The notes beneath the pieces are model-generated. The model saw only the letters and a program-made list of their open reading frames with translations. It was not told the DNA's origin and did no database searches. The position numbers and the translations under genes were made by a program. Below are positions 35,607-52,393 of a stretch of DNA of 64,000 nucleotides, piece after piece. How positions within the stretch are numbered: position 1 is the first letter of the stretch; each line of letters begins with the position of its first letter. Origin of the DNA: Burkholderia contaminans (GTDB taxonomy: Bacteria > Pseudomonadota > Gammaproteobacteria > Burkholderiales > Burkholderiaceae); assembly GCF_029633825.1 (NCBI RefSeq), contig NZ_CP090646.1, forward strand, positions 1 to 64,000, read 5' to 3'.

Positions 35607-35639
35607 GTAACCCTGCGCGCCTGGTGGTCTGCGCGATTC

Positions 35640-35935
35640 GGCGGCCGCCGGAGTCCTGCGCCGGGCTACGGGGGTCGTGGCCGCTCACGCGGCCCCGAGG
35701 TCTACCGACCCGGCCCCCTACCGTCGCACCCGCCCGTCCACTGGACGGTCGGGCAAGGGACGGCACCGGCGGGGCGAGCGCCTGGTGGTGATCGACGTTC
35801 CGGATTGGCTTTGCAGGAAAGGGGGTCTGCCGGGCGTGTCGCGTAATTCGCAACGTCTATCTATGTCCGCCCGCCATTGGGACAATCAATCGCCAAACGA
35901 TAGACGTAACGAGATACGAAGAGTAAAATGGTTTC
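35640..35935 (+). repeat. Leading-region composite repeat, copy A
   Basis: Starts at the GGCGGCCGCCGGAGTCCTGC block and ends in the promoter of the ParB-like gene. It lacks the first 200 bp of the full module but is preceded by its own terminator. Internal hairpins include CCGTCC-ACT-GGACGG near 35733 and GGCCGC/GCGGCC near 35680. Confidence 0.9.
35855..35929 (+). promoter_or_regulatory. Module promoter A
   Basis: GTCTATC (35855), 37 bp, GATAGAC (35899); -35 TAGACG (35901), 17-bp spacer, -10 TAAAAT (35924). Confidence 0.75.
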
Positions 35936-35977
35936 CATGGCGGTTGGGAATCGAAAGACACGAATAGGAGAGGTGAA

Positions 35978-36940
35978 ATGAAGGTTCATTGCTCGCTCAA
36001 GCAGGCGGCGGAAGACAAGGAAGATCCGTCTGTCTCCAAGCGCACGGAGTTTTACGTTGATCCGGAGACTCTGGTGCTCGAAGAGGGCTACAACCTTCGA
36101 AGGGAGACCAAGGCACTTCGCGAATCGATTCAGCAACTGAAGATCGCGTACATCAACGGGGCCACGTTCCCGGCCATCGACGTGGAGATGGTCAACGGTA
36201 AGAGAGTCGTTCGCGATGGTCATCGCAGAACTCGCGCTGTTCTGGAAGCCATCGCTGAGGGGTATCCGGCGCGGCGATTGGAGGCGCGAGAATGGAGGGG
36301 CAATAGTGTGGAAAGCCTCCTTCATATGCTGGGTACGGCGGATGCCATGGCCCTCTCGACTCTTGAGAAGGGGATCGGCTATCTGCGACTTGTGAAATTC
36401 GGCTGGACAAAGGCTGAGATCGCAAGCAAGCGGAACGTATCGCTGCCGCACGTCGATCAAGCCCTGATGCTCGCGAATGCGGAACCGGATGTGCAGCAGA
36501 TCGTCGCGGAAGAGCTGGTAACTGTGAATGTGGCAATTGAGACGTTGCGTGAGCATGGCAAGAATGCCGGGGCCGTGCTTCGTGAGGTCATCGAGACCGC
36601 CCCGATCGAGTTAACAGAAAGTGGCGAGGAACGCCGGAAGAAGGTAACGAAGCGCGAAGTGAAAGCAGCCCGCGCGCCTGCGAAGCGACGTACCCTGCCC
36701 CGAGCGCTGGCGGACCGATACGTGTCGAATGTGAACGCCCTGTTCTCTTCGATGCCCGATGACGTGCGGGCTCAGGTGGCGGCCGCTGGTGACGAGGCGA
36801 CAATTCCGGTATCGGCGCGCTTCCTGAAAGAGCTGATGGCGGCTCAGCTCGAAGCGCAGCAGATCTGCCAGCCGGTTAGCGAACCGGAAAGCGATAACGA
36901 TCCGCGACAAACTAGCCTGCTGGTCGACGGAGATGGTTAA
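35978..36940 (+). CDS. ParB/RepB/Spo0J-like DNA-binding protein (320 aa)
   Basis: AGGAGAGG precedes ATG 35978. Residues about 28-90 form the ParB N-terminal domain, with the NG-RVVRDGHRRTRAVLEA box (GHRR in place of GERR). An HTH follows (TKAEIASKRNVSLPHVDQAL, about 148-167), then a basic linker and an acidic tail. No ParA neighbour is present, so it is more likely a KorB-like regulator than a partition protein. Its promoter carries the GTCTATC/GATAGAC sites, compatible with self-control. Confidence 0.85.
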   Translation: MKVHCSLKQAAEDKEDPSVSKRTEFYVDPETLVLEEGYNLRRETKALRESIQQLKIAYINGATFPAIDVEMVNGKRVVRDGHRRTRAVLEAIAEGYPARRLEAREWRGNSVESLLHMLGTADAMALSTLEKGIGYLRLVKFGWTKAEIASKRNVSLPHVDQALMLANAEPDVQQIVAEELVTVNVAIETLREHGKNAGAVLREVIETAPIELTESGEERRKKVTKREVKAARAPAKRRTLPRALADRYVSNVNALFSSMPDDVRAQVAAAGDEATIPVSARFLKELMAAQLEAQQICQPVSEPESDNDPRQTSLLVDGDG

Positions 36941-36968
36941 ACCAGTTTCCCCGTCCTTTCTCTCGTTT

Positions 36969-36995
36969 GCCCCTGCCTAGCAGGGGCTTTTTTTT
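36969..36995 (+). terminator. Rho-independent terminator
   Basis: GCCCCTG-CCTAG-CAGGGGC followed by eight T. Confidence 0.93.
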
Positions 36996-37009
36996 ATCCG
37001 CGTTGCGCG

Positions 37010-37086
37010 GACTATCGAGATGGAAAATCGATAGAAAAAAATCGGTCTGCGAAAGGATAGACGAAGTGAGTTACATGGCATACGAT
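37010..37086 (+). promoter_or_regulatory. Promoter with degenerate GTCTATC and two GATAGAC sites
   Basis: GACTATC (37010) lies 39 bp before GATAGAC (37056). TAGACG (37058) and TACGAT (37081) are 17 bp apart, and a second GATAGAC (37084) overlaps the -10. It drives the gene at 37120. Confidence 0.55.
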
Positions 37087-37119
37087 AGACGCAACGTTAT
37101 ACATACAAGGAGAGGGCGT

Positions 37120-37356
37120 GTGTCAAAACTCAAAGATCTTGTCATCAGGCATAGCGCAGAGATTCGTCAATTGCAGCGGACGACGATCGAAACCATATCC
37201 GGAGCGTTGGAGATCGCAACGAGCCTACCGCAGCTCAAGACGACGATTCAGGAAGCGCTAGATACGCTCGCGCACCGTCAAAGGGCTGCTGAAGAGCGAT
37301 ACAGTATCAAGCTGCAAGAGATCGACAGGAGTGCGCGCAAGCGGCCGGAGAACTGA
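37120..37356 (+). CDS. Small coiled-coil protein (78 aa)
   Basis: GTG 37120 stands after AAGGAGAGG; ATGs further upstream lie within the promoter. The product is entirely amphipathic helix (IRQLQRTTIETISGALEIAT), as in small KfrA-like or structural DNA-binding accessory proteins, but no family was recognised. Confidence 0.55.
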   Translation: MSKLKDLVIRHSAEIRQLQRTTIETISGALEIATSLPQLKTTIQEALDTLAHRQRAAEERYSIKLQEIDRSARKRPEN

Positions 37357-37380
37357 CGTGCGTTCTCTATCGAGGTCAAA

Positions 37381-37477
37381 AAAATGGGGAAGCGCCCGGC
37401 CCGCAAGAGGCAGGGGCGCGGTGCGGTTGTCCACGGGACGCTGGCGGCGGCCGGTGGACAACCGCATCCCCATTTCC
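37381..37477 (+). repeat. 97-bp long-range inverted repeat, left copy
   Basis: It is the reverse complement of 50176-50272 except for two adjacent central bases. Inside is a strong hairpin: TGCGGTTGTCCAC (37422) and GTGGACAACCGCA (37454) are perfect 13-bp arms around 19 bp; ATGGGGA and TCCCCAT lie outside. It lies between convergent genes. Confidence 0.9.
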
Positions 37478-37559
37478 TTCCTAGAGCGAAGTGATGTGAA
37501 GCGGGATCTGGTGTGAGGGGAGCTAACGCTGACGTCGTTCGGCTGACGATCGAGGCAGA

Positions 37560-38036
37560 TCACTTACCGGGGTTGCCACCCGCCTTCGAATTGCCAAAGT
37601 CCCCAGCTCGCCACCGCTCGTTCTGAGCGAGGCAGCGTAATAGATTCATCGCAACCAGTCCGTCGCCATACTCACGGCGAATGATAGTAACCAGATGCTC
37701 GATCTCGGCCATTACACGCCGCGCACGCACGACCTCGAGGATTACGCGCCTCACGTCCGGGTCGCGCTCGCGCCGGTATAACTCAACCAGTTCGCCGTGC
37801 ATAGGCGGTTCGAATTCGGGCAGCGGCTTCACACCACTAGGCTTTACTTTGAACGCTTCCCGCCATTCTGGCGGTCCTACGCGCTCACGACGCGTATGGT
37901 TTAGGCACCGTCCCCATGCCTCTGTAAGCGTTTGAGATCGCAAACCCTCGCTCCTAGTTAACCAGAACGGGTACAGCTTTACCTGCCCGTTATCGAGATC
38001 CGTGTACTCCCACTGATATTCCCAAACAGTCCCCAT
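37560..38036 (-). CDS. Hypothetical protein (158 aa), the only minus-strand gene inside the leading array
   Basis: ATG 38036 is chosen; the frame is open to 38114. It is soluble, with an N-terminal aromatic-rich strand region (VWEYQWEYTDLDNGQVKLYP) and a helical C-terminus. A TGGATATCCA palindrome lies just upstream, a possible operator. Family not recognised. It is co-oriented with stbABC rather than with its neighbours. Confidence 0.6.
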   Translation of the reverse strand: MGTVWEYQWEYTDLDNGQVKLYPFWLTRSEGLRSQTLTEAWGRCLNHTRRERVGPPEWREAFKVKPSGVKPLPEFEPPMHGELVELYRRERDPDVRRVILEVVRARRVMAEIEHLVTIIRREYGDGLVAMNLLRCLAQNERWRAGDFGNSKAGGNPGK

Positions 38037-38092
38037 TTTCGGCACCAACACTGTATGGATATCCAGTGTATCCCATCGACGCGCTACACACA

Positions 38093-38425
38093 TGCGCGCC
38101 GCGGTTGTGTGCAAGCGGCGGCGGCCGCCGGAGTCCTGCGCCGGGCTACGGGGGGTCGTGGCCGCTTACGCGGCTCCGAGGTCTACCGACCCGGCCCCCC
38201 TACCGTCACACCCGCCCGTCCACTGGACGGTCGGGCAAGGGACAGCTCCGGCGGGGCAAGCGCCTGGTGGTGATCGACGTTCCGGATTGGCTTTGCAGGA
38301 AAGGGGGTCTGCCGGGCGCGTCTCGTAATTCGCAATGTCTATCTATGCCTGCCCGCCATTGGGACAATCAATCTCCAAACGATAGACGAAACGAGATACG
38401 AATAGTAAAATGGTTTCCGTGGTGG
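38093..38425 (+). repeat. Leading-region composite repeat, copy B
   Basis: Begins near GCGCGCCGCGGTT and ends in a promoter. It lacks the front terminator and about 180 bp of the GC-rich body, and has lost a few bases relative to full copies. Confidence 0.9.
38337..38411 (+). promoter_or_regulatory. Module promoter B
   Basis: GTCTATC (38337), 37 bp, GATAGAC (38381); TAGACG (38383), 17 bp, TAAAAT (38406). Confidence 0.75.
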
Positions 38426-38484
38426 TGATGACCACGGAATACGACGATGCCCCGGCCACTACCTTAACTACTACAGGAGAAACA

Positions 38485-38832
38485 ATGGATACGTTGCATG
38501 TTGCGCGTCGTGTTACGCGCAAGTTTGTCGGCACGTTCCGCCACCTGGACGCATGGGACGAGCTGGGCACGATCCGGCACACGCCATTCCGCAAGGTGTA
38601 CAACCCGGCACGCGATGAAGATTTGTCGGACGGCCCCAGCTACGTCGCCTTCGCCCGCCTGCCCGCCGGCGCGGACGTCAAAGAGTGGTGCCTCGCCATC
38701 GAGGACAGCATGTCGTCGCACGGCTGCTCGCACGAGTACGACTGCTGCGGCTGCGCCTCGCACTACGCGCGGGTGTATCCGTACCGCGGCCGCGTGGTGC
38801 GGATCAGCGTCGGCGTGTCCTACAACTACTGA
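38485..38832 (+). CDS. Hypothetical protein (115 aa) with a cysteine/histidine cluster
   Basis: CAGGAG precedes ATG 38485. Residues about 81-95 hold a dense metal-binding-type cluster (HGCSHEYDCCGCASHYARVY). The rest is beta-rich. First of five small genes in a row behind module B, it is probably an early-expressed leading protein. No known family. Confidence 0.65.
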   Translation: MDTLHVARRVTRKFVGTFRHLDAWDELGTIRHTPFRKVYNPARDEDLSDGPSYVAFARLPAGADVKEWCLAIEDSMSSHGCSHEYDCCGCASHYARVYPYRGRVVRISVGVSYNY

Positions 38833-38858
38833 CCAACGCAACGCCAAGGGGAACGACG

Positions 38859-39053
38859 ATGGCACGAATCAAGGCTGACGAGGTTTGCGTGGGCGACAAG
38901 ATCGTCCGCCCCGGCGATGCGATTTACGAAGTCGTGGCGCTCGAATGGTTCACGGTCACGGTGCATCTGCATTGCGTCGAGCGCCGCGTGGCCAAGCTCG
39001 ACCGACACGAGACGTTCTCGTACAACCGCGACGAAAAGGTCGAGGTTGCCTAA
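38859..39053 (+). CDS. Small beta-rich protein (64 aa)
   Basis: AAGGGGAACGACG precedes ATG 38859. The sequence suggests a small SH3-like barrel (KIVRPGDAIYEVVALEWFTV). It resembles the protein at 39081 in size and strand pattern. Function unknown. Confidence 0.55.
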   Translation: MARIKADEVCVGDKIVRPGDAIYEVVALEWFTVTVHLHCVERRVAKLDRHETFSYNRDEKVEVA

Positions 39054-39080
39054 CAACCGCTCCCGCTACAGGAGAACGAC

Positions 39081-39305
39081 ATGTCAATCACTATCGAATT
39101 CGAAGATCTCGGGCAAGACTTTCTTGTGTGGACGCTCAATGAGAACGGCGTCGTGATCGAGTGCAAGCCGTTTCAGGCGTGGCTGTGGAAAGGTCGACAG
39201 GTAGTCGACTACGCAAGCCTGAAGCGCGGTGACGTTGTGCACTTCCTCGACAACGACAACCACATGCGACCGCTGAAATACCGCATTGCGCGCATCACGC
39301 ACTGA
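39081..39305 (+). CDS. Small beta-rich protein (74 aa)
   Basis: It is preceded by the recurring leader AACCGCTCCCGCTACAGGAG. The C-terminal segment (LKRGDVVHFLDNDNHMRPLK) reads like a small barrel domain. Unknown function. Confidence 0.55.
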   Translation: MSITIEFEDLGQDFLVWTLNENGVVIECKPFQAWLWKGRQVVDYASLKRGDVVHFLDNDNHMRPLKYRIARITH

Positions 39306-39333
39306 TCAACCGCTCTCGCTACAGAAGAAAGAC

Positions 39334-39465
39334 ATGGACGACTTCGGCAACTCGATCAACAACTACGCATTCCTGATGCACGACATGATCTGGAAGCGAA
39401 TCTACTTCTTCACCAGCGCTATCAGCGGCGGTTCGCACGTCGACGCGGCCGACAACGTGATCTAA
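39334..39465 (+). CDS. Small protein (43 aa)
   Basis: ATG 39334 follows the leader variant AACCGCTCTCGCTACAGAAG. The product (NSINNYAFLMHDMIWKRIYF and on) is amphipathic and may touch the membrane. Unknown. Confidence 0.45.
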   Translation: MDDFGNSINNYAFLMHDMIWKRIYFFTSAISGGSHVDAADNVI

Positions 39466-39494
39466 CCAACCGCTACCGCTACAGGGGAAAGACC

Positions 39495-39674
39495 ATGCCA
39501 GAAGAACAACTCGCGAGCGCAGTGGAACTGCTGATGGCGCTCAAACGCGACCTGATGCACGCGCGCCGGTTCGGGCCGGACACACTCGCTAACTACCGGC
39601 GCGCTTGTTCGTCGGCAGAAGGTGACGTTGAAGCGTGGCTCATCGAACATGGCCACCTCAAATCGACCGAGTAG
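39495..39674 (+). CDS. Small helical protein (59 aa)
   Basis: ATG 39495 follows the leader variant AACCGCTACCGCTACAGGGG. All-helical and acidic (ASAVELLMALKRDLMHARRF). Its stop abuts the truncated module copy C. Unknown. Confidence 0.5.
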   Translation: MPEEQLASAVELLMALKRDLMHARRFGPDTLANYRRACSSAEGDVEAWLIEHGHLKSTE

Positions 39675-39862
39675 CAAGGGACAGATCCGGCGGGGCAAGC
39701 GCCTGGTGGTGATCGACGTTCCGGAATGGCTTTGCAGGAAAGGGGGGCTGCCGGGCGCGTCGCGTAATTCGCGCCGTCGATCGAAAATCGCCCGCCATTG
39801 GGACAATCAATCACGAAGCGATAGACAAAACGAAGTACGGCACGTAAAATGGTTTCCATGGT
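39675..39862 (+). repeat. Leading-region composite repeat, copy C (3' part only)
   Basis: Begins at CAAGGGACAGATCCGGCGGG directly after a stop codon and keeps only the last 190 bp, including the promoter. It is the most diverged copy: the left operator is GTCGATC instead of GTCTATC. Confidence 0.9.
39776..39850 (+). promoter_or_regulatory. Module promoter C
   Basis: GTCGATC (39776, one mismatch), 37 bp, GATAGAC (39820); TAGACA (39822), 17 bp, TAAAAT (39845). Confidence 0.75.
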
Positions 39863-39890
39863 GATTGTGACAATTTTTGGAGAAAGTACC

Positions 39891-40709
39891 GTGCCGCAAG
39901 CGACGACAGACCTGGTTAAGAGTGTGAGTGTTGAGAACATGCTCCGGCAGCGTGACGCCGTAATGGAGCGTATCGCAGAAGCGAAGCGGCTGATTGGCGA
40001 AGCTGACGAAATTGCTTCGAAGGCCGGATTTGGCGCAGTGAGTGGCTATATCTCGGACAGATATTCGCACGGTGGTGCGCGCTTTGGTCATGCTGATTTC
40101 GTGGAGCAGATGCGCAAGCATGTTGATGCTTCCGGTTGGAAGCATCTGATGAACGAGTCAGGAATTCGAACCCTGATGGATGCCGAGGCGCGGAAGCAAT
40201 GGGACAGCAGCGTCTATGAATTGAAGACGCCGGAGCTGACACTTGCAAACGTCACTTCGACCTTTACAGTGCTGCGCGATGGCCGGGAAGAACTGTTCGA
40301 ACGAGGCGTGATCGCTTGCTTTCGCGGACTGTCGTGGGACTATAAGACCAATCAACCGTTCAAGTTTGGTAAGCGTATTGTGATGCGATGCCTCTACCAG
40401 GCTCAGGTTGGCCCCTATACGCAGAGTGTCAACCACCACGCGGCCGACAAGCTAGACGATCTTGTGCGCGTGTTCAGCGTGCTTGATGGGAAGCCGGAAC
40501 CCGACCACCGGAACGGCATGTATATGCACCTGAGCAATGCTACGTGCAAACGTCCCGTTGAGCGCTTCATCGATCTCGAATATTTTGAGATTCGCTGGTT
40601 CAAGAATGGTAACGGACACTTGACATTCAAGCGGCCCGAGCTTGTCGAAAAGATCAATCGAATTATCGCGAAGTGCTACCCGCACGCACTCGCATCCGAG
40701 GTTAGATAA
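39891..40709 (+). CDS. DUF4942-type leading-region protein (272 aa)
   Basis: GTG 39891 is chosen because GGAG stands 8 bp upstream; upstream ATGs lie in the promoter. The middle part (FERGVIACFRGLSWDYKTNQ and PFKFGKRIVM) and the C-terminal block (FEIRWFKNGNGHLTFKRPEL) match the DUF4942 proteins encoded by many plasmids. The family's function is not established. It is the only gene behind module C. Confidence 0.75.
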   Translation: MPQATTDLVKSVSVENMLRQRDAVMERIAEAKRLIGEADEIASKAGFGAVSGYISDRYSHGGARFGHADFVEQMRKHVDASGWKHLMNESGIRTLMDAEARKQWDSSVYELKTPELTLANVTSTFTVLRDGREELFERGVIACFRGLSWDYKTNQPFKFGKRIVMRCLYQAQVGPYTQSVNHHAADKLDDLVRVFSVLDGKPEPDHRNGMYMHLSNATCKRPVERFIDLEYFEIRWFKNGNGHLTFKRPELVEKINRIIAKCYPHALASEVR

Positions 40710-40772
40710 CCCGGCACCGCTGAACGGCCACGCCAGCGCGGCATTGATCTGACGGAGCCCCCCCACACACTA

Positions 40773-40806
40773 ACGCCCCAGCAGCTTGCCGCGCTGGGGC
40801 GTTTTG
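40773..40806 (+). terminator. Module terminator D
   Basis: ACGCCCCAGC and GCGCTGGGGCGT form the stem around AGCTTGCC, followed by TTTT. It ends the DUF4942 transcript. Confidence 0.85.
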
Positions 40807-41195
40807 CTATCCAGCTCGCGCGTTGCGCTCGATGGGGACGGCGCGCCGCTGCGCGTCGCGATCGCGGGCCGGCCGCCGGCGACGCGGGCGGGGGCTCTCG
40901 ATCCAGCTCGCGCGCCCTGGCGGCCGCGCTCGATGCCGACGACGGGCGGCGCATTCGCGCCGCGGTGGTCTGCGAGCGGCGGCGGCCGCCGGAGTCCTGC
41001 GCCGGGCTACGGGGGTCGTGGCCGCTTGCGCGGCCCCGAGGTCTACCGACCCGGCCCCCTACCGTCTCACCCGCCCGTCCACTGGACGGTCGGGCAAGGG
41101 ACGACACCGGCGGGGCAAGCGCCTGGTGGTGATCGACGTTCCGGATTGGCTTTGCAGGAAAGGGGGGCTGCCGGGTGTGTCGCGTAATTCGCAAC

Positions 41196-41270
41196 GTCTA
41201 TCTATTTCCGCCCGCCATTGGGACAATCAATCGCCAAACGATAGACAAAACGAAGTACGTAGCGTAAAAT
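41196..41270 (+). promoter_or_regulatory. Module promoter D
   Basis: GTCTATC (41196), 37 bp, GATAGAC (41240); TAGACA (41242), 17 bp, TAAAAT (41265). CGTAATTCG (41183) can pair with CGAAGTACG (41251) at 8 of 9 positions, extending the stem formed by the 7-bp sites. Confidence 0.75.
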
Positions 41271-41306
41271 GATTTCCATGGTGAGGCGTTGACAAGGAGA
41301 TGAGAA

Positions 41307-41789
41307 ATGCAAGCCAAGATTGAAGTTGCAGCCGTTCTGGACAGCCTGCGCATCCAGGCGTCTACCCGCGTCTTTGCGGAGAGCGATGATCGGCAGTATT
41401 TCGTGAACAGCAGCTACATCGAAGATCGTGACGTGATTCTTCGCATCCTGATCGAGCGCGCCATCATTCGCCGTGCCGTGAGCGACATTCTGGCCGACAG
41501 TGAAGGCTATACCGTTCGCGTGTGGGACGGCGAAGCATATGCCATCAAGTCGTCTCGCGATCTTATCGAGATCATGGGTGCGATCATGGCGACGGACGAG
41601 GAAACCATCATCATCCACCGTCCCCACACGGAAGAGAATCGGAGCAAGCCGGTGCGTGTCGGATCGTTGTCTCTGGTCTACGGTAACTCCGGCTGGGACG
41701 TCATTTCCGACAACGCGGACAACGACGAGACGAACCGCCTGATCGCGGGAGCCGAGAAGCTCGCCAGCGCCTTCGCCGCAGTGCTTTGA
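41307..41789 (+). CDS. Hypothetical protein (160 aa)
   Basis: AAGGAG precedes ATG 41307. A soluble alpha/beta protein; the N-terminal 60 residues are helical, followed by strands (GYTVRVWDGEAYAIKSSRDL) and an acidic end. It is the first gene behind module D. No family recognised. Confidence 0.65.
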   Translation: MQAKIEVAAVLDSLRIQASTRVFAESDDRQYFVNSSYIEDRDVILRILIERAIIRRAVSDILADSEGYTVRVWDGEAYAIKSSRDLIEIMGAIMATDEETIIIHRPHTEENRSKPVRVGSLSLVYGNSGWDVISDNADNDETNRLIAGAEKLASAFAAVL

Positions 41790-41835
41790 TCGAAACGGCC
41801 TGCCTGATGCGGGCCGACCTGATGAGGAAGGGATT

Positions 41836-42126
41836 ATGTATCTGTTTCTGATCGTCGCTAGGCTTAGCGGTAGCGATGCAGAGTTCGGCACGTTCTTGGA
41901 ACCGGCCGAAGATGAGCAAATCGCACAAGATCTTGTGCTGTCCAGATTCACGGACGAGATGGAAGAGATCGAGAAGCGAGAGAAGTCGCTCGAAATCGAG
42001 GTCTCGGTACTGATCGGGGAGTATGTCGCAGAAGACACGCTACGAATCCCGACCGGTGTTGACTGGATGCTCGATCGGCAAGTGTGGCTGCGGTCTGTTG
42101 TACAGCCGCGCAGGCTCGGCTACTAA
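41836..42126 (+). CDS. Hypothetical acidic protein (96 aa)
   Basis: GAAGGGATT precedes ATG 41836. A strand-rich start is followed by a strongly acidic helix (FTDEMEEIEKREKSLEIEVS). Acidic small proteins of leading regions include DNA mimics such as ArdA, but nothing here proves mimicry. Confidence 0.55.
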   Translation: MYLFLIVARLSGSDAEFGTFLEPAEDEQIAQDLVLSRFTDEMEEIEKREKSLEIEVSVLIGEYVAEDTLRIPTGVDWMLDRQVWLRSVVQPRRLGY

Positions 42127-42151
42127 TCAACGTACCCGAAGGGGAACGACC

Positions 42152-42382
42152 ATGAACGCAGCCAAGCAAGCAGTGATCGCAGACGCGGAGCGCGCCGGCT
42201 ACACGATCGAACGTCATGAAACGTGCGTTGACATCGTGAAGCGCACGAAGCATGCGAAGCCGCGCGTTGCAGTGGCGCTGCGCATCTATGAGGACGGCAC
42301 GGCGTTCGATGCAACGATGGACCTGTCGGCCGCGAAGGCCATCCGTAACGCGGCCGACATGCGGGCGTTCCTTGGCATTTAA
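42152..42382 (+). CDS. Small alpha/beta protein (76 aa)
   Basis: AAGGGGAACGACC precedes ATG 42152. A helix, three strands, then a C-terminal helix (LSAAKAIRNAADMRAFLGI). Proteins at 43851 and 44076 end in a similar way (ATRKAARDWLGY and GAKAARHFII), suggesting a small family of related leading proteins. Confidence 0.6.
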   Translation: MNAAKQAVIADAERAGYTIERHETCVDIVKRTKHAKPRVAVALRIYEDGTAFDATMDLSAAKAIRNAADMRAFLGI

Positions 42383-42410
42383 CAACCGCTCCCGCTAGAG
42401 GAGAAAGACC

Positions 42411-42575
42411 GTGAAAGTCGAAAAGGTAGTGCTGCCGGACGGACGTGAGCGTGTGCGAGTTACAGGTGATGACGGCCGCAAGTCCTATTGGTGGCACATC
42501 CGCCAGCGGCCGCGCGAAATCACGTCGGCAAAGCAACGCGTGCTGATCGACGCAGCAATCGCGCGCTCCGCCTGA
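42411..42575 (+). CDS. Small basic protein (54 aa)
   Basis: GTG 42411 follows the leader AACCGCTCCCGCTAGAGGAG. Basic, with a WW pair (DGRKSYWWHIRQRPREITSA); it could bind nucleic acid. Unknown. Confidence 0.5.
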   Translation: MKVEKVVLPDGRERVRVTGDDGRKSYWWHIRQRPREITSAKQRVLIDAAIARSA

Positions 42576-42603
42576 CCAACCGCTCCCACTACAGGAGAAA
42601 GCC

Positions 42604-42798
42604 ATGAACAAGCCGCAAATGACGCTTCGCTGGAACGACGGCGAAGAACAAGCGATCAGCCGGGCGAAAGCCGCCCGCGAGATTCGCAAGAACCGCAACG
42701 CACACCCTGCGCTTGGCGTGCGCGTTTTCCGGAAATTTCGCGAGACGTACATCGTCAGCGAATTCCTCGGTGTCGGCTGCTGCATCCATCGCGCATGA
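42604..42798 (+). CDS. Small basic protein (64 aa)
   Basis: It is preceded by the leader AACCGCTCCCACTACAGGAG. The middle is a strongly basic helix (SRAKAAREIRKNRNAHPALG) and the end has CC. It could bind nucleic acid. Unknown. Confidence 0.55.
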   Translation: MNKPQMTLRWNDGEEQAISRAKAAREIRKNRNAHPALGVRVFRKFRETYIVSEFLGVGCCIHRA

Positions 42799-42853
42799 AC
42801 AACTGGCCGCGCGTCCCGACTGACAACCGTAGTCACTATAGGAGATGGGCGAA

Positions 42854-42970
42854 ATGAAGATGCGTAAGCGCCGCATCAAACGAGGGCTGATTCTCGGGCC
42901 GTGGAAAGGGCAGCCAAACGCCCGACCGCTTCTGCTGTTATGGTGGCCGCATCACCACCGTAAAGCCTGA
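42854..42970 (+). CDS. Very small basic protein (38 aa)
   Basis: ATG 42854 with GGAG 9 bp upstream; ATG 42845 is in frame. The product has an extremely basic start (MKMRKRRIKRG) and a hydrophobic, His-rich end (LLLLWWPHHHRKA). Its leader (AACCGTAGTCACTATAGGAG) is a variant of the recurring one. Confidence 0.4.
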   Translation: MKMRKRRIKRGLILGPWKGQPNARPLLLLWWPHHHRKA

Positions 42971-43003
42971 AAAACCGCCCCCGCTACGACGGACATTGAA
43001 GTC

Positions 43004-43512
43004 ACGCCCCAGCAGCTTGCCGCGCTGGGGCGTTTTGCTATCCAGCTCGCGCGTTGCGCTCGATAGGGACGGCGCGCCGCTGCGCGTCGCGATCGCGGGC
43101 CGGCCGCCGGCGACGCGGGCGGGGGCTCTCGATCCAGCTCGCGCGCCCCGGCGGCCGCGCTCGATGCCGACGACGGGCGGCGCATTCGCGCCGCGGTGGT
43201 CTGCGAGCGGCGGCGGCCGCCGGAGTCCTGCGCCGGGCTACGGGGGTCGTGGCCGCTTGCGCGGCCCCGAGGTCTACCGACCCGGCCCCCTACCGTCGCA
43301 CCCGCCCGTCCACTGGACGGTCGGGCAAGGGACGACACCGGCGGGGCAAGCGCCTGGTGGTGATCGACGTTCCGGATTGGCTTTGCAGGAAAGGGGGTCT
43401 GCCGGGCGCGTCGCGCAATTCGCATCGCCTATCTATATCTGCCGACCATTGGGACAATCAATCGTCAAACGATAGACAAAACGAGATACGGATAGTAAAA
43501 TGGTTTCCATGG
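43004..43512 (+). repeat. Leading-region composite repeat, copy E (full length)
   Basis: Full module including terminator 43004-43037. An orphan leader (AACCGCCCCCGCTACGACGG) sits just before it at 42973 with no gene after it, as if a cassette had been lost when the module was inserted or recombined. Confidence 0.95.
43427..43501 (+). promoter_or_regulatory. Module promoter E
   Basis: GCCTATC (43427, one mismatch), 37 bp, GATAGAC (43471); TAGACA (43473), 17 bp, TAAAAT (43496). Confidence 0.75.
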
Positions 43513-43533
43513 TGATAGACATGGGGAACGACG

Positions 43534-43821
43534 ATGAACAAACCGACTTTCGCAAAGCTGCTTGACGCATGCGACTGCGCGACACGCGGTCTGATGTTCA
43601 ACGTCTGCTGCGCGCTCAGCGAGGCCGCTGACAACGCGATCCACAGCGAAGTGCTGGTCAGCAATGAGTTCGTTCGCGTTGGTGACAACTGTTCGCCCCT
43701 GTTCGACGGAGCCGCGCTCGACAGCCTAGCAACTGTCATGTCCTGCAACGTGCTAGGTTGGTCCGACGCAGAACACGCCGACGTCGCTGCATGGCTCGCG
43801 GCCCGTGGCTTCACTTTTTAA
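43534..43821 (+). CDS. Hypothetical protein (95 aa)
   Basis: GGGGAACGACG precedes ATG 43534. A helical protein with five cysteines (LDACDCATRG, NVCCALSE, MSCNVLGW), ending in an amphipathic helix. First gene of five behind module E. Unknown. Confidence 0.6.
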   Translation: MNKPTFAKLLDACDCATRGLMFNVCCALSEAADNAIHSEVLVSNEFVRVGDNCSPLFDGAALDSLATVMSCNVLGWSDAEHADVAAWLAARGFTF

Positions 43822-43850
43822 CAACCGTACCTACCAAGCTGGAGATCGCA

Positions 43851-44039
43851 ATGTTCGAAACTACAGCGGCCCTGATCCGATGGATCGACACCCATTACCT
43901 GCCCGAGCCGACGATCGACAACGGCGACGGCACCCTGACCGTAGCTTGCGCAGTGGTCGCGGCCGACAGAAGCGTGTTGATCGAGCGCTCGAAGATCCCG
44001 GCGACGCGTAAGGCCGCTCGCGACTGGCTCGGCTATTGA
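43851..44039 (+). CDS. Small alpha/beta protein (62 aa)
   Basis: CTGGAGATCGCA precedes ATG 43851. The layout is helix, beta hairpin (TIDNGDGTLTVACAVV), C-terminal helix (IPATRKAARDWLGY), similar to the protein at 42152. Unknown. Confidence 0.6.
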   Translation: MFETTAALIRWIDTHYLPEPTIDNGDGTLTVACAVVAADRSVLIERSKIPATRKAARDWLGY

Positions 44040-44075
44040 TCCGGTCGTACTGACCGACGACGAAGGGGAGTGACG

Positions 44076-44297
44076 ATGGAAAAGCTGAGCGCAATCGCGA
44101 AGTGTCAGGAAATGAAGCCGGTTCTGTCCAGCATCCAACAATCTGGATTCGCGGCGCAGATGATGCAGAACGGAACTATTGAAGTGCAAGACCCGGTTCT
44201 CTGCCTTGGCGTCGGCGGCAAGAACCATACGGAATACCGCACGATCAAGCTGCACGGTGCCAAGGCCGCGCGGCATTTCATTATCGAACGCAGCTAA
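44076..44297 (+). CDS. Small alpha/beta protein (73 aa)
   Basis: AAGGGGAGTGACG precedes ATG 44076; a GTG 6 bp upstream is in frame. Ends KLHGAKAARHFIIERS, like the proteins at 42152 and 43851. Unknown. Confidence 0.55.
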   Translation: MEKLSAIAKCQEMKPVLSSIQQSGFAAQMMQNGTIEVQDPVLCLGVGGKNHTEYRTIKLHGAKAARHFIIERS

Positions 44298-44313
44298 CTA
44301 AGGGGAAGAGTCC

Positions 44314-44544
44314 ATGACTACCGATACGATCGATCTGACGCCCACATGGGGTGAAGTCGGAAATATGTATGTCCGACTGGCAGAGTCGGGGGAAGTGGCC
44401 GCGATTCGGAGGATGCGATCGGAGGCTGCAAAGGCGTTTGCCGCAGCTCAGGCGTTCACGGCGATTCAAGCGACGCTCTCGGAAGAGCAGCGCGCGATCG
44501 CAAGTGGCGTACTGACCACTGAACTTTCGAAGATGGGCTACTGA
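44314..44544 (+). CDS. Small helical protein (76 aa)
   Basis: AAGGGGAAGAG precedes ATG 44314. Alanine-rich helix (AKAFAAAQAFTAIQATLSEE). The next gene starts 3 bp after its stop, so the two are co-translated. Unknown. Confidence 0.55.
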   Translation: MTTDTIDLTPTWGEVGNMYVRLAESGEVAAIRRMRSEAAKAFAAAQAFTAIQATLSEEQRAIASGVLTTELSKMGY

Positions 44545-44547
44545 AAA

Positions 44548-44760
44548 ATGACGTTGCTTAACCAAACCATGAGCGCTCGCGCGGTTCAGCTTCTGGTCGA
44601 TGCCGAGGCGCAACGCTACGGGGAGCTGATTCGCGATCAAACGTGGTCACTGGAACACGCGCATTACGTTCTGACTCACATCGATCAGGAAAAGCTCGAC
44701 CTCTTCTCTGTTGCAGGGCTCGCGATGGCGATCGCTTGGTATCAGTGCAGCGACAGCTAA
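44548..44760 (+). CDS. Small helical protein (70 aa)
   Basis: ATG 44548 follows the previous stop by 3 bp without a strong ribosome-binding site of its own, so it is probably translated by re-initiation. Helical and acidic. Last gene before module F. Confidence 0.5.
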   Translation: MTLLNQTMSARAVQLLVDAEAQRYGELIRDQTWSLEHAHYVLTHIDQEKLDLFSVAGLAMAIAWYQCSDS

Positions 44761-44781
44761 CCGCCCCGCCCTGCCCAACCG

Positions 44782-45293
44782 ACGCCCCAGCAGCTTGCCG
44801 CGCTGGGGCGTTTTGCTATCCAGCTCGCGCGTTGCGCTCGATGGGGACGGCGCGCCGCTGCGCGTCGCGATCGCGGGCCGGCCGCCGGCGACGCGGGCGG
44901 CGGCTCTCGATCCAGCTCGCGCGCCCTGGCGGCCGCGCTCGATGCCGACGACGGGGCGGCGCATGCGCGCCGCGGTGGTCTGCGAGTGCCTGCGGCCGCC
45001 GGAGTCCTGCGCCGGGCTACGGGGGTCGTGGCCGCTTACGCGGCCCCGAGGTCTACCGACCCGGCCCCCTACCGTCGCACCCGCCCGTCCACTGGACGGT
45101 CGGGCAAGGGACAGCACCGGCGGGGCGAGCGCCTGGTGGTGATCGACGTTCCGGATTGGCTTTGCAGGAAAGGGGGTCTGCCGGGCGCGTCTCGTAATTC
45201 GCAGCGTCTATCTATTCCCGCCCGCCATTGGGACAATCAATCGCCAAACGATAGACAAAACGAAGTACGTATCGTAAAATGGTTTCCATGGTG
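44782..45293 (+). repeat. Leading-region composite repeat, copy F (full length)
   Basis: Full module including terminator 44782-44815. Differs from D, E and G by a few substitutions and a one-base insertion in GACGACGGGGCGGCGC. Confidence 0.95.
45206..45280 (+). promoter_or_regulatory. Module promoter F
   Basis: GTCTATC (45206), 37 bp, GATAGAC (45250); TAGACA (45252), 17 bp, TAAAAT (45275). Confidence 0.75.
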
Positions 45294-45342
45294 ATCGAGA
45301 CGATCACCGCAGCAGAAACGGCAAATTTTCGGAGATTCCACC

Positions 45343-46176
45343 ATGCGCCTCGCTTCCCGCTTCGCCCCCAACGCTCACCAACTCCGCGCGAACTCCCCGC
45401 TTTCGGATGACCAAATCGCGCGCGTTGCTCCGTCGATCTTCGCGACGGAGAAGCACGAAAGCCGCTCCGACCGTTACACCTACATCCCGACGATCGAGGT
45501 GCTGAACGGCCTGCGTGGCGCTGGCTTCCAGCCGTTCATGGTGGCGCAAACCCGCGTTCGTGATGCTGGCAAGCGCGAACATACCAAGCACATGATCCGC
45601 CTGCGTCATGCAGATCAGATCATCGGCGCGGAAGCCGACGAAATCATCCTGCTTAACTCGCACGACGGGACGAGCAGCTATCAGATGATCGCGGGTCAAT
45701 TCCGTTTCGTCTGCGCGAACGGGATGGTTTGCGGCGAGACGGCGAGCGAGATCCGCGTTCCGCACAAGGGCAAGATCGTGGATGACGTCATTCAAGGCGC
45801 GTTCGACGTGCTGGACGGGTTCCAGTACATCCGCGAGGTCAAGGGCGAAATGAAGTCGCTCACGTTGAGCCGTGGCGAACAGGAAGCGTTCGCTACCGCT
45901 GCGCTCCAGCTCAAATACGAGCCGAGCGACGTGAAGCCGGCACCGGTCACGGAAACGCAAATTCTCGAAGCGCGCCGCTTCGAAGATCGCAAGGATGACC
46001 TGTGGACGACGTTCAATCGCCTGCAGGAGAATCTGATTCAGCGCGGCGGCCTGCCCGGACGCACGGCATCCGGCCGGACGACCCGGACGCGCCCGGTCGA
46101 GGGCATCGACCAAAACGTCAAACTGAATCGCGCGTTGTGGACGCTGACCGAGGCGATGGCGGCACTGAAGAAGTAA
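45343..46176 (+). CDS. DUF932-family protein (277 aa)
   Basis: ATG 45343; GGAGATTCCACC lies upstream. The DUF932 core is clear: YTYIPTIEVLNGLRGAGFQP, then HMIRLRHADQ, and FRFVCANGMVCGE. DUF932 proteins are widespread in the leading regions of conjugative plasmids and in phages; their biochemical role is not established. It is the first gene behind module F. Confidence 0.9.
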   Translation: MRLASRFAPNAHQLRANSPLSDDQIARVAPSIFATEKHESRSDRYTYIPTIEVLNGLRGAGFQPFMVAQTRVRDAGKREHTKHMIRLRHADQIIGAEADEIILLNSHDGTSSYQMIAGQFRFVCANGMVCGETASEIRVPHKGKIVDDVIQGAFDVLDGFQYIREVKGEMKSLTLSRGEQEAFATAALQLKYEPSDVKPAPVTETQILEARRFEDRKDDLWTTFNRLQENLIQRGGLPGRTASGRTTRTRPVEGIDQNVKLNRALWTLTEAMAALKK

Positions 46177-46225
46177 AGAGTAAGCGGGCCGGGAGACCGG
46201 CCCGCAGACCGAACGGAGGGAGAGA

Positions 46226-46486
46226 ATGAGCGAAACGAACGCACCGAACCCGGACGGAGCCGCCGGAGGCTGGTCGGAAGTCAATGAGTTTTCGTTGACG
46301 CGGAACGGGCACTACCTGACGCGCTACATGGTTCATGGCGTTGCGGGTTATCTGTTGTGGGATAAGGCTGGAAAGCCGCATGGGCCGTTCGACACCGTGA
46401 AGGCGGGAATGGATCACTACGATTGCATCGCTCCCACCGACGAAGGCGAAGGTAACGACGGAACGGAGGTGCAGGATGAGCAGTGA
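46226..46486 (+). CDS. Hypothetical protein (86 aa)
   Basis: GGAGGGAGAGA precedes ATG 46226. Acidic ends surround a strand-rich middle (HYLTRYMVHGVAGYLLWDKA). Its 3' end overlaps the next start by 11 bp. Unknown. Confidence 0.6.
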   Translation: MSETNAPNPDGAAGGWSEVNEFSLTRNGHYLTRYMVHGVAGYLLWDKAGKPHGPFDTVKAGMDHYDCIAPTDEGEGNDGTEVQDEQ

Positions 46487-46736
46487 TGAGCTGACGCCGG
46501 ACGACGTGGACGGATTTCGTGCGCAACTCCGTGCGGGCGATATGGTCGGCGCGTTCGGGGCAGTCAAGAAGCTGCCGATCGAAAGCGCCGCCAACATGAT
46601 GTTGCGCGCAGGGTTCAGCGTCGCGTACGACAGGCGAAGCCCGCGCGCATTTTGGGAGCGCACCCAAACCGATATAGTCCGCGCATGTAGACAGAACACG
46701 GACGGTTACGGGCTTCGGCCGAAAGACTCCTTCTAA
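46476..46736 (+). CDS. Hypothetical protein (86 aa)
   Basis: ATG 46476 overlaps the preceding gene, with GGAGGTGCAGG upstream. Helical; ends basic. Unknown. Last gene before module G. Confidence 0.55.
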   Translation: MSSDELTPDDVDGFRAQLRAGDMVGAFGAVKKLPIESAANMMLRAGFSVAYDRRSPRAFWERTQTDIVRACRQNTDGYGLRPKDSF

Positions 46737-46756
46737 GCCACTCCCCGCTTTTCATC

Positions 46757-47267
46757 ACGCCCCAGCAGCTTGCCGCGCTGGGGCGTTTTGCTATCCAGCT
46801 CGCGCGTTGCGCTCGATGGGGACGGCGCGCCGCTGCGCGTCGCGATCGCGGGCCGGCCGCCGGCGACGCGGGCGGGGGCTCTCGATCCAGCTCGCGCGCC
46901 CCGGCGGCCGCGCTCGATGCCGACGACGGGCGGCGCATTCGCGCCGCGGTGGTCTGCGAGCGGCGGCGGCCGCCGGAGTCCTGCGCCGGGCTACGGGGGT
47001 CGTGGCCGCTTGCGCGGCCCCGAGGTCTACCGACCCGGCCCCCTACCGTCGCACCCGCCCGTCCACTGGACGGTCGGGCAAGGGACGGCACCGGCGGGGC
47101 GAGCGCCTGGTGGTGATCGACGTTCCGGATTGGCTTTGCAGGAAAGGGGGTCTGCCGGGTGTGTCGCGTAATTCGCAACGTCTATCTATGCCCGCCCGCC
47201 ATTGGGACAATCAATCGCCAAACGATAGACAAAACGAAGTACGTAGCGTAAAATGGTTTTCATGGTG
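46757..47267 (+). repeat. Leading-region composite repeat, copy G (full length)
   Basis: Full module including terminator 46757-46790. Closest to copy D, including the CCGGGTGTGTCGCGTAATTC segment. Confidence 0.95.
47180..47254 (+). promoter_or_regulatory. Module promoter G
   Basis: GTCTATC (47180), 37 bp, GATAGAC (47224); TAGACA (47226), 17 bp, TAAAAT (47249). Confidence 0.75.
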
Positions 47268-47286
47268 ACCGACAAGGAGAAACGTG

Positions 47287-48886: not shown

Positions 48887-48917
48887 GATAGACGAAACGA
48901 GATACCGCGAGTATAAT
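48887..48917 (+). promoter_or_regulatory. Promoter TAGACG-N17-TATAAT without a module
   Basis: GATAGAC (48887), TAGACG (48889), 17 bp, perfect TATAAT (48912). A degenerate upstream partner (CCTATTC, about 48843) lies at about the usual distance. The GC-rich module body is absent. It drives 48967-49960. Confidence 0.75.
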
Positions 48918-50300: not shown

Positions 50301-50330
50301 AACAAAGCCCCGCTATTGCGAGGCTTTGTT
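50301..50330 (-). terminator. Terminator overlapping the 3' end of stbC
   Basis: AACAAAGCC and GGCTTTGTT form a 9-bp stem around 12 bases; the stem overlaps the last codons of stbC. The T tract is short. Confidence 0.55.
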
Positions 50331-50750
50331 GATGGCCGCTTGCAGCTTCGCCTGCGTTACCGCATCGAGCAACGGAAACGCTGCCGTCACGGCGCGGCCG
50401 AGCTTGGCCTCTTCCTGCCCTTTGCCGAAGATTTGCATGCCGCCGACCACCACGACGCCGGCGACGAGTCCCGCGACCAGCGCGGCGGCGATCGCCACCG
50501 TCAACGGGTTTGTCCTCTTCGGCTCGATCATCGGCACCGGTTTATCCGGCATGGCCGCTAACAACTTCTTAGCGGCCATCGTGGCTTCCTGCACGGATCG
50601 AGCGGTGTCCTTGGTGCTCGCGTCAATCTCCTGCACCCTGTTCGTCAAGGCTTCCGCCTTGCCGAACAGGTCGTGCATTTCTCCGAGCACGATTCTCAGG
50701 GCCGCATCCCGTCTTGTCTGAGGCCCCGGAGCCGTCTCCGTGTCGCTCAT
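50313..50750 (-). CDS. stbC: StbC-like membrane-anchored protein
   Basis: 145 aa. A coiled-coil N-terminal half (MHDLFGKAEALTNRVQEIDA) is followed by one transmembrane helix at about 88-110 (PLTVAIAAALVAGLVAGVVV) and a short C-terminal domain. It overlaps stbB by 4 bp. Position and size match StbC of the R388 stbABC operon next to oriT, whose role is not well defined. Confidence 0.75.
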   Translation of the reverse strand: MSDTETAPGPQTRRDAALRIVLGEMHDLFGKAEALTNRVQEIDASTKDTARSVQEATMAAKKLLAAMPDKPVPMIEPKRTNPLTVAIAAALVAGLVAGVVVVGGMQIFGKGQEEAKLGRAVTAAFPLLDAVTQAKLQAAINKASQ

Positions 50751-51499
50751 TTGCCTTTCGCCTTGCCGAACAGCAGATCCGTTGAGCGCGCGAGGTTGGC
50801 TTGCGCGTCGACGGCCAGATCGTGGTCGGCTTGTGCCTCAATCGCGGCCAACTCCGCATCCAGGTCGCCCGCTGCCTTGGCTTCGGCTCGCTTTGCGCGC
50901 CAGTCCGTCTGGTCTTCCGCCAGTTCACGGATGTTCTTGCGGCGAACGAGATCGAATACTTCGCTTTGCTTGATGACGATATGCGGTTCGTAGGTTGCCT
51001 TGTTCTTGCCTTCCGTTGCCGCGTATCCCGCGATTTGCGCGTAGACGTGTTCCACCGGCAAATTCGCTTCCCCGCCATCGTACATATTGAAGACGAGACG
51101 GATTTTACTCGACGGGAAACCGAGCTTCGAAAGCCATTCGATCGTTGCGATCGTGTCTTTCTGTTGCTTGTCGGCCGGAACGGTCGGGACGACGATCAAA
51201 TCCAGTTCGCCAATCGCACTTTTATAACGCGTCAGTTCGCCCATGAATTGAACGACATTCGATGCGCCGACGTCTACGATTACGTCATCGTTCAACATGA
51301 TTGTTCGGAAAATATCACGGAACTCGGATGCCGAAAACTCTTCGGCTTTCGTGCTCTCGATTTCATTCGCCACCGAGGCGTTGTGAAGTTCGACCGAAAC
51401 AAATTTTGCGTCCGGACGACTCGCTTTCAACCAGTTGGTCGCCAGCGTGGTTTTTCCGACGTTACCGCTCAGGTTGATGACGGCGATTTTTTTGCTCAT
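50747..51499 (-). CDS. stbB: StbB, ParA-like ATPase
   Basis: About 250 aa. The deviant Walker A reads NLSGNVGKTTLATNW near the N-terminus, with a Walker B-like strand (NDDVIVDVGAS). I chose ATG 51499 because AAAGGA is 7 bp upstream; ATG 51505 is also in frame. In R388 StbB is needed for conjugation and works against StbA in plasmid positioning. It is flanked by StbA and StbC homologues in the same order. Confidence 0.88.
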   Translation of the reverse strand: MSKKIAVINLSGNVGKTTLATNWLKASRPDAKFVSVELHNASVANEIESTKAEEFSASEFRDIFRTIMLNDDVIVDVGASNVVQFMGELTRYKSAIGELDLIVVPTVPADKQQKDTIATIEWLSKLGFPSSKIRLVFNMYDGGEANLPVEHVYAQIAGYAATEGKNKATYEPHIVIKQSEVFDLVRRKNIRELAEDQTDWRAKRAEAKAAGDLDAELAAIEAQADHDLAVDAQANLARSTDLLFGKAKGK

Positions 51500-51501
51500 G
51501 T

Positions 51502-51987
51502 TCATTTCCTTTGGCTGCGTGCGAATTTTCGATAATCGACTTGACTTGCTTTCTGAGCTTCTTGCAATGCGTCTTTCACTTCGAACGCACTGCCGACGCT
51601 ATCTGATTCCGGGGGCGTAACCTGCTCCCGTGGTTCCGCTGATCCACTCCCTTTTGGTTCCACTGATCCACTAACGTTTGGATCATCTGATCCAACCCGG
51701 ATTGGTTCAGGTGATCCATGCGTGATTGGCTTGACCGATCCAGCCTGTTCCGCTCGCTTGCGCACCCGCTTCAAGGTCGTGTTGTACACATCGAACGTCA
51801 TCTGAACACCGGCAGCGACCAGCGCTTGATGAATGGTTGCGTGTCGATGCCCGAGGTTGTTTGCCCGCTCGATTAGCGGGAACAGTCGTTCGAGCAACAC
51901 TGCCTTCGAGCGGAGGTTTTGCGCCTGCAACTTTCGGGCGGTTTCCTCTAGTTCGATCAGTTCGTCTACGGTTTGCATGGAAGTCAT
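51502..51987 (-). CDS. stbA: StbA-like DNA-binding segregation protein
   Basis: 161 aa from ATG 51987 (ATG 51978 and TTG 52014 are alternatives). The N-terminal 75 residues form the DNA-binding domain (GHRHATIHQALVAAGVQMTF, a helix-turn-helix). The C-terminal half is a linker with five GSxxP units (GSVKP, GSPEP, GSDDP, GSVEP, GSAEP), whose DNA repeats the TGATCC word. R388 StbA binds direct repeats next to oriT and ensures stable inheritance; the same layout is seen here. Confidence 0.8.
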   Translation of the reverse strand: MTSMQTVDELIELEETARKLQAQNLRSKAVLLERLFPLIERANNLGHRHATIHQALVAAGVQMTFDVYNTTLKRVRKRAEQAGSVKPITHGSPEPIRVGSDDPNVSGSVEPKGSGSAEPREQVTPPESDSVGSAFEVKDALQEAQKASQVDYRKFARSQRK

Positions 51988-52014
51988 CGTAACTTGTCGT
52001 GTACTTAAAGGCAA

Positions 52015-52393
52015 CTAAAAAGGAACAAAATGTATCGTGAATTTTCGACAAGGTAACACGACGGGAACACTTTTGGAACTGAGGCGGTACAGACGTGGAA
52101 CATTTGAGGGGTCGTCGCGCCCCTAATCGGCCTCGCCAGGGCCGCAAAAGCCCCAAAAACCGGGTTGAAATACGCTTTTTCTGGCCTGATCAGACCATCA
52201 AATGCCCTCGCACGGGCCGAAATCGGCGGTCGACCGACTGTCCTAGAACCCCAACACACCATACGCACCTCTTGCGAGGTGCTGCAAAGCCAAGCTGCGC
52301 TTGGCTTTAAAGGCAAAACCGGCGCCAATTTTTGGGTTATCAGGTAACACGTTAGGGTGTAGGATGCCCGTGTTTTAAGGGAGATCGTGTGTT
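52015..52393. other. oriT: Origin of transfer (oriT) region
   Basis: A non-coding 379-bp gap between divergent stbA and trwA, as in R388. GCACCTC-TTGC-GAGGTGC (52265-52282) is a perfect hairpin. On the minus strand it continues as GGTGCGTATGGTGTGTTG, very like R388 GGTGCGTATTGTCTATAG. By that alignment the nick falls between 52256 and 52255 on the minus strand. A second hairpin, AAAGCCAAGC/GCTTGGCTTT, follows at 52286-52308. GGTAACAC occurs at 52052 and 52343, and GGAACA words at 52022, 52073 and 52106 may be StbA or TrwA sites. Confidence 0.8.
52251..52282 (-). other. Predicted nic site and adjacent relaxase hairpin
   Basis: The hairpin arms at 52265-52271 and 52276-52282 and the following nine bases match the R388 relaxase substrate at the positions that matter (GGTGCGTAT, then G-T-x-T before the nick). 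Predicted cut: minus strand, 5' of the G at 52255. The 35-50-kb side would then enter the recipient first. Confidence 0.65.

Follow-up and report, generated by a model that had tools for sequence, protein, structure and literature searches.

A conserved DNA element with a predicted fold, possibly a single-strand initiation site, precedes repeated promoter-like sequences in the probable leading region of a Burkholderia contaminans plasmid

We analysed the first 64,000 nucleotides of contig NZ_CP090646.1 of Burkholderia contaminans (assembly GCF_029633825.1; this whole stretch is hereafter called the window), in which a promoter-bearing module is repeated in front of the leading-region genes of a plasmid, predicted to be the earliest to reach a new cell. 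Six of these modules (A, B, D, E, F, and G) contain a core of about 107 nt with a predicted fold on the strand that is probably the transferred strand (T-strand) in conjugation. On balance, and with limited conviction, we favor the reading that the core is a single-strand initiation (ssi) site, i.e. a priming site, from which second-strand synthesis would start and proceed through the adjacent promoter and operon soon after entry. The repeats, the covariation of the core, its position and strand with respect to the genes, the constant promoter with its operator-like motif, and the order of core and promoter in other plasmids are read directly from the DNA sequence. What stands out is the pairing of duplex promoters with a structured, ssi-like element in the DNA.

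The core was first noticed as about 100 nt of the module body that match plasmids otherwise sharing little with the module. An earlier note, made on the window from its letters alone, had described this body as GC-rich and hairpin-forming, without foreseeing that it holds a separate and widely conserved element. Our covariance model R1 locates the six cores as follows:

35654..35760, minus strand, core (ssi-like fold) of module A, 75.5 bits
38134..38242, minus strand, core of module B, 72.3 bits
40995..41101, minus strand, core of module D, 77.6 bits
43226..43332, minus strand, core of module E, 75.6 bits
45005..45111, minus strand, core of module F, 77.2 bits
46979..47085, minus strand, core of module G, 75.6 bits

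In the bottom-strand alignment of 27 sequences, hairpin 1 is followed by a long stem that carries GGTA and GTA as invariant text and encloses a GGTA-loop hairpin and a variable hairpin 2; the GGTA loops are invariant. Over the 33 pairs of this fold, 89.7% of the alignment cells are paired (73.9 when shuffled), double changes are found in 19 pairs (14.5 +- 1.3 when shuffled), and the covariation score is 0.344, compared to 0.104 +- 0.010 for shuffled and at most 0.090 for slid alignments. The corresponding count over all 57 model matches (38 distinct; model-fitted alignment), one of which is weak (L047 4200-4297, 20 bits, E 0.81), is 23 of 33 pairs. The seed alignment was built leaving out two of the six window copies, four of the six copies from PsJN, one of the two from P. 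citrulli, L063 and L066 (near L056), L014 and L016 (which repeat the elements of L047 and L048), and those plasmids of B. contaminans that are near-identical. Among the 38 distinct matches, the modelled strand has the more stable fold in 32, the less stable in 4, and an equal one in 2, when compared to its complement, and folding of the whole of module E gives a z score of -4.3 for the bottom strand and -3.2 for the top strand. Wobble pairs lean to the modelled strand in the model-fitted alignment (14 G-U vs 5 A-C), those of the free alignment (21 G-U vs 16 A-C) being too close to pick a strand.

The modules themselves had been reported as seven near-identical copies in one direction, and the repeat scan, blastn, and the alignment confirm direct repeats at all seven positions on one shared strand, adding an eighth copy (H), absent from the earlier list, that consists of the promoter only. 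Modules D (from 40773), E (43004), F (44782), and G (46757) are full-length, with D, F, and G being 95-96% identical to E (blastn). The other copies and the terminator-like hairpin heading module D are:

35616-35940, plus strand, module A, lacking the first ~180 bp of the module
38091-38424, plus strand, module B, lacking the first ~180 bp of the module
39674-39865, plus strand, module C, truncated, with the promoter half kept and the folded core absent
48883-48935, plus strand, copy H, promoter only
40773..40805, plus strand, terminator-like hairpin of module D (repeat family D6, alignment)

Likewise, such hairpins head the modules at 43004, 44782, and 46757, and a similar one occurs at 35569, ahead of module A; none was found at modules B and C by repeat scan and alignment. 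The claim that each module ends one transcription unit thus holds for five of the seven at most. The terminator scan of the window returned 18 terminator-like sites, compared to 14.9 +- 4.4 in shuffled sequences, and did not flag the hairpins of D-G because it requires five T, where these have TTTT.

All eight copies carry a sigma70-like promoter made of TAGACA or TAGACG, a 17-nt spacer, and TAAAAT (TATAAT in H), which bears out the constant geometry that had been proposed. The sigma70 scan found 10 sites in the window vs 4.6 +- 2.1 in shuffled sequences. The promoter-like sites, all detected by the motif and sigma70 scans, are:

35901..35929, plus strand, module A (TAGACG-17-TAAAAT)
38383..38411, plus strand, module B
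39822..39850, plus strand, truncated module C, without core (also blastn and alignment)
41242..41270, plus strand, module D
43473..43501, plus strand, module E
45252..45280, plus strand, module F
47226..47254, plus strand, module G
48889..48917, plus strand, copy H (TAGACG-17-TATAAT; also repeat scan)

An operator-like motif, GATAGACNNNNCGNNNTAC, surrounds these promoters, with 17 occurrences in the window vs 0.00 expected. In five modules (A, B, D, F, and G) it forms an inverted pair with a constant 56-nt pitch, as in module D:

41184..41258, inverted operator-like motif pair of module D (41184-41202 on the minus strand, 41240-41258 on the plus strand)

The assignment of the bottom strand as T-strand is based on the gene layout. 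The modules are followed on their right by a leftward stb-like operon and then by rightward genes for a coupling protein and a MobF relaxase, an order that is the mirror image of that of R46. From this mirrored layout we infer that the origin of transfer (oriT) is at 52.0-52.4 kb, that the leading region extends leftward from it, and that the bottom strand is the T-strand; the leading-region genes run toward this oriT. The genes concerned are:

35978..36940, plus strand, gene after module A, ParB-like protein (HTH_ParB just under the Pfam cut-off; 60% to PsJN)
39849..40709, plus strand, gene after module C, DUF4942 (33% to a ColIb-P9 protein)
45343..46176, plus strand, gene after module F, DUF932 (54% to a DUF932 protein near the F oriT)
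50313..52014, minus strand, stb-like operon (middle gene StbB-like, 31% to R46 StbB; StbA and StbC by position)
52015..52393, no strand assigned, putative oriT region between the divergent stb-like and transfer genes, from layout
52777..54411, plus strand, coupling protein (TrwB_AAD_bind, Pfam)
54351..57665, plus strand, MobF relaxase (TrwC, Pfam)

The likeness of the DUF932 protein to one encoded near the F oriT and that of the DUF4942 protein to one of ColIb-P9 support the term leading region, and with it the earlier placement of repeated promoter modules in the leading region of a Burkholderia-type plasmid, here of MOBF type. The module region of the 76,682-bp contig C7 is nearly identical to that of B. 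contaminans plasmids, and ten proteins of the window are 100% identical to those of strain 5080.

The relaxase side of oriT is the trailing side, as described in PMC11541004. We identified a relaxase by annotation or Pfam in six core-bearing plasmids and assigned their T-strands with the relaxase side as trailing. The core lies on the T-strand so assigned in 20 of 20 copies (six in our plasmid, six in PsJN, three in Herbaspirillum, two each in Acidovorax and P. citrulli, and one in X. axonopodis).

In total, we count 25 copies of the core in 10 plasmids, setting aside B. contaminans near-copies and a second P. citrulli record. Besides the copies just listed (those of PsJN being on pBPHYT01), Eleftheria has two, and B. 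glumae, P. aromaticivorans, and Massilia, like X. axonopodis, have one each. In small plasmids, single copies lie near rep genes. The core is rare in genomes. The covariance model finds it in 3 of 399 genomes of the order, and the exact core pattern occurs in 6 of the 398 genomes of the family and 2 of the 369 of the class, with our own genome counted each time and none for a reversed-pattern control; these surveys are lower bounds, as the order survey scored only 10 candidates per genome and the exact pattern misses one of our own six cores. Plasmid matches in Streptomyces, Rhizobium, and four Xanthomonas records are short, and the one that was fetched (L046) has no covariance-model match. 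At E 0.001, 146 of 398 family genomes match the 517-bp module; we did not take these matches for homologues, since most of those listed are short and fall in the GC-rich first half.

The contrary outcome named in the earlier note, chromosomal scatter with transposition hallmarks, is not what these low counts show. Eight of the nine blastn matches of copy E in its own genome are on contig C7, the ninth being a GC-rich match of 45 bp on contig C2 (E 6e-4). A transposon origin was considered and rejected: no transposase was seen in or between the modules. In the relative XL73, one IS256 insertion lies within the region.

The core also occurs in viruses. In IMG/VR we found it in 16 viral contigs, and the stored stretch of 13 of these includes a P2-type portal gene (a gpQ relative); INPHARED phages gave no match with three queries. 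A loose pattern had matched 23 viral stretches, 15 of which were confirmed by R1, and the eight without a match had been set aside by eye before the seed was built. In the phage contigs, all 13 cores are on the strand opposite Q, 1.0-1.4 kb past its end, and share one orientation. P2 replicates by the rolling-circle mode, according to PMC8537503. In the P2 record, gpB is needed for lagging-strand synthesis and the nick site lies in gene A at 29892. The displaced P2-type strand would be the one carrying the core if replication proceeds rightward. In viral contigs L060, L063, and L066 (also L051 and L065), the core starts ~500-550 bases into the stored stretch, counted from its left end, which may be the cos end of virion DNA.

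The order of core and promoter recurs in other plasmids. In the gene direction, the distance from the core to the promoter-like site is 140 nt in our plasmid, 144 nt for the first copy in PsJN, 138 nt in G121, 189-194 nt in the three modules of Herbaspirillum, 111 nt in Acidovorax, and 118 nt in P. citrulli. In Herbaspirillum, Acidovorax, and P. citrulli, all five sites have TATAAT as -10, and their surroundings differ from the motif of the window while the core stays the same, which is what a two-part device would show. The Herbaspirillum modules (L072 14418-14905, 15855-16210, and 19690-20106) all have, between core and promoter, a further GC-rich hairpin (CCCCGCGCCCTCTCGGGACGCGG) that was not seen in the modules of the window.

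The fold of the core on the predicted T-strand, together with its placement by plasmid rep genes and in P2-like phages, points to a priming function that would extend beyond promoter control. Such priming could work as follows. The bottom strand would enter as T-strand, with its 5' end at oriT near 52.0-52.4 kb, and the core would fold on this incoming strand and recruit a primer-making system of the host, be it the PriA primosome, DnaG, or RNA polymerase. The new strand would extend from the core through the promoter and operon, and it would cover these first, since synthesis primed on the T-strand proceeds in the direction of the genes. The duplex promoter would then fire while the regulator of the plasmid is still absent from the recipient, and binding of the regulator to the motif pair would subsequently shut it off, giving an early burst; with several cores, several operons could become duplex in parallel. 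A broader proposal, which we consider possible though somewhat doubtful, is that every leading operon comes with a second-strand start of its own, placed just ahead of an ordinary repressible promoter, and would in this way turn itself into duplex and switch itself on, in place of a promoter active on single-stranded DNA. The start site would be one conserved structure used by conjugative T-strands, by small plasmid replicons, and by P2-like phages of Burkholderiales and relatives of Xanthomonas; this would be a new way to express establishment genes.

We find it unlikely, although worth serious consideration, that the core, alone or with the promoter region, is a promoter on single-stranded DNA (ssDNA) of the Frpo kind, where RNA polymerase would start on the folded T-strand and read through the leading operon downstream, with the transcript serving as primer too. 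The core has the same place and strand as Frpo in F, where two near-identical copies are found as well (559-bp repeat, 89%). Frpo drives the early leading genes of F in vivo through a fold that rebuilds -10 and -35, and is switched off once the duplex forms (PMC9849209). Nevertheless, the core has a GC content of 70-80% with no AT-rich box in its invariant columns, and the modules have canonical duplex promoters. In pairing tests, for which some hexamers are one base off in the PsJN, Acidovorax, and P. citrulli rows, pairing of the -35 and -10 boxes does not exceed that elsewhere on the strand, and no box is in a hairpin arm. As the F/ColIb positive control was likewise not recovered, these tests do not count against an ssDNA promoter.

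The modules might instead act in duplex form only, as a CUP-like regulon in which the core is a duplex binding site or a structural spacer. The operator-like motif at every promoter, far more frequent than expected, and its inverted pairs of the same pitch also away from cores speak in favor of such a role, which we nevertheless regard as improbable, given that the covariation of paired bases and the invariant loops are unexpected for a duplex site, that phages and rep regions have the core but not this promoter, and that copies C and H show the promoter part to be separable. It is still more improbable that the core is a transcribed structured RNA, a small RNA or leader, encoded on the bottom strand. 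Covariation and invariant loops are indeed RNA-like, but a search of 35000-50500 against Rfam 15 up to E 1 gave no match at any core (two weak matches elsewhere are below gathering scores), the core faces away from the operon it precedes in the six plasmids that can be judged, and its contexts, i.e. leading regions, rep regions, and P2-like phages, share single-strand phases and not a gene family.

Several observations weigh against a priming site. Promoter and core are not always found together: in P. citrulli, one core of the two lacks a promoter-like site within 300 nt, and copies C and H have a promoter without core. The strand rule rests on T-strands that were all assigned from gene layout, and its 20 copies represent about four lineages (ours and PsJN; Acidovorax and P. 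citrulli; Herbaspirillum; Xanthomonas) and thus cannot be treated as 20 independent tests. Five copies are outside the count, no relaxase being identified in Eleftheria (two copies), P. aromaticivorans, B. glumae, or Massilia (one each); a PF03432 relaxase was searched and not found in the first two, and the last two were judged from partial annotation and typing only, with no MOBF search made in any of the four. The Eleftheria terrae plasmid cores (L074 1-97 and L076 1471-1572) are on the same strand as the neighboring genes, unlike those of the judgeable plasmids, and may contradict the rule. For the phages, the rightward direction of P2 replication is our assumption. The covariance model gives no significant match in phage P2 and a best match of E 0.8 in ColE1, which is not significant. 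In F, it finds none in 48000-70000 up to E 10 with filters on, and the 27 matches in the leading region up to E 10 with filters off (best E 0.34) were treated as chance. The F-G intergenic region of phiX174, which we take to be the primosome assembly site, is the best-scoring place for R1 and tied best for R2 without significance (E 1.3 and 3). With no significant match in phiX174, ColE1, F, or P2, no proven ssi is recognised as kin of the core.

The core shares features with several known systems. Frpo and ssi2/ssi3 of F and ColIb-P9 are likewise repeated, structured, non-coding T-strand DNA just upstream of leading genes, the window having such a structured element on the T-strand deduced from its layout, and this likeness would lead one to expect early expression in the recipient. 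Unlike them, the core is GC-rich without recognised -10/-35, is followed by a canonical duplex promoter with operator-like motif, is present in six copies, and also occurs in P2-like phages. By blastn, the modules have no match in F and a 19-nt, chance-level match in ColIb (E 0.67). The ssi signals of F, R6K, R100, and ColE2 start complementary- or lagging-strand synthesis. Similar to these, the core is a conserved, folded element near rep genes and in leading regions, on a strand that would become single according to our strand assignments, whereas it differs in being a new class of sequence and structure, coupled to a promoter, with a priming role that is predicted. The phiX174 site resembles the core in its hairpin flanked by CCGAAGC and TGAG text, with GGTAGG nearby, and has a different second domain.

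The CUP/ArdK regulon of the IncN plasmids R46 and pKM101, with which the modules had been compared, also has repeated promoter/operator units before leading genes, in a MOBF plasmid with stbABC beside oriT. The parallel stands as to repeated leading-region promoters with a shared operator-like motif, and the R46 sequence is unrelated, as had been suggested. It does not extend to membership, which sequence and regulator do not support: modules E and G have no blastn match in R46 1-50000 at E 1, R46 has no covariance-model match to the core up to E 10, CUP elements differ from the modules in that the latter contain the folded core, and no relatives of R46 ArdK, ArdR, ArdA, or ArdB were found in all of C7 (tblastn, E 0.1), a search that a distant regulator would escape. 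A CUP-like logic is plausible, the motif around every promoter fitting the regulon idea. Similar motif pairs stand apart from any core at 34002/34058 (where the right member has diverged) and, on contig C7, at 74402/74459 (57 nt), so that the motif is part of a plasmid-wide regulatory scheme, with a regulon reaching beyond the leading region. Away from the modules, the motif is found at these two places and at 11653, 35278, and 37084 of the window. A 63-amino-acid helix-turn-helix protein (34941-35132, minus strand) is encoded near motif sites and is a candidate regulator of the motif.

To our knowledge, the way in which leading genes are switched on has been little tested outside the F and IncI model plasmids. 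A large survey used five known Frpo/ssi sequences in BLAST searches together with a -35/-10 consensus (PMC11541004), a method that is unlikely to find this core, and we found no description of the core element in the open-access literature searched. The covariance model marks predicted start points base by base, which makes priming and ssDNA transcription directly testable against each other. The model could also point to leading regions and to the polarity of the T-strand in plasmids typed as non-mobilizable despite a relaxase, as in Herbaspirillum, Acidovorax, and P. citrulli. A common start signal, if true, would link plasmid conjugation and rolling-circle phages.

Two other repeat families were observed in the region. 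A palindromic repeat of ~97 bp flanks the leading region in two inverted, 98% identical copies, at 37381-37477 (plus strand) and 50178-50274 (minus strand). PsJN pBPHYT01 (L009) has five relatives of this palindrome (88-93%), three of which stop ~140 nt short of a core, and another sits immediately left of the stb genes, where the window has one too. A 30-bp repeat (about AACCGCTCCCGCTACAGGAGAA; family D5) occurs in six copies, within 39051-39493 and 42380-42850, right before the starts of small genes, and thus forms a repeated gene-start junction.

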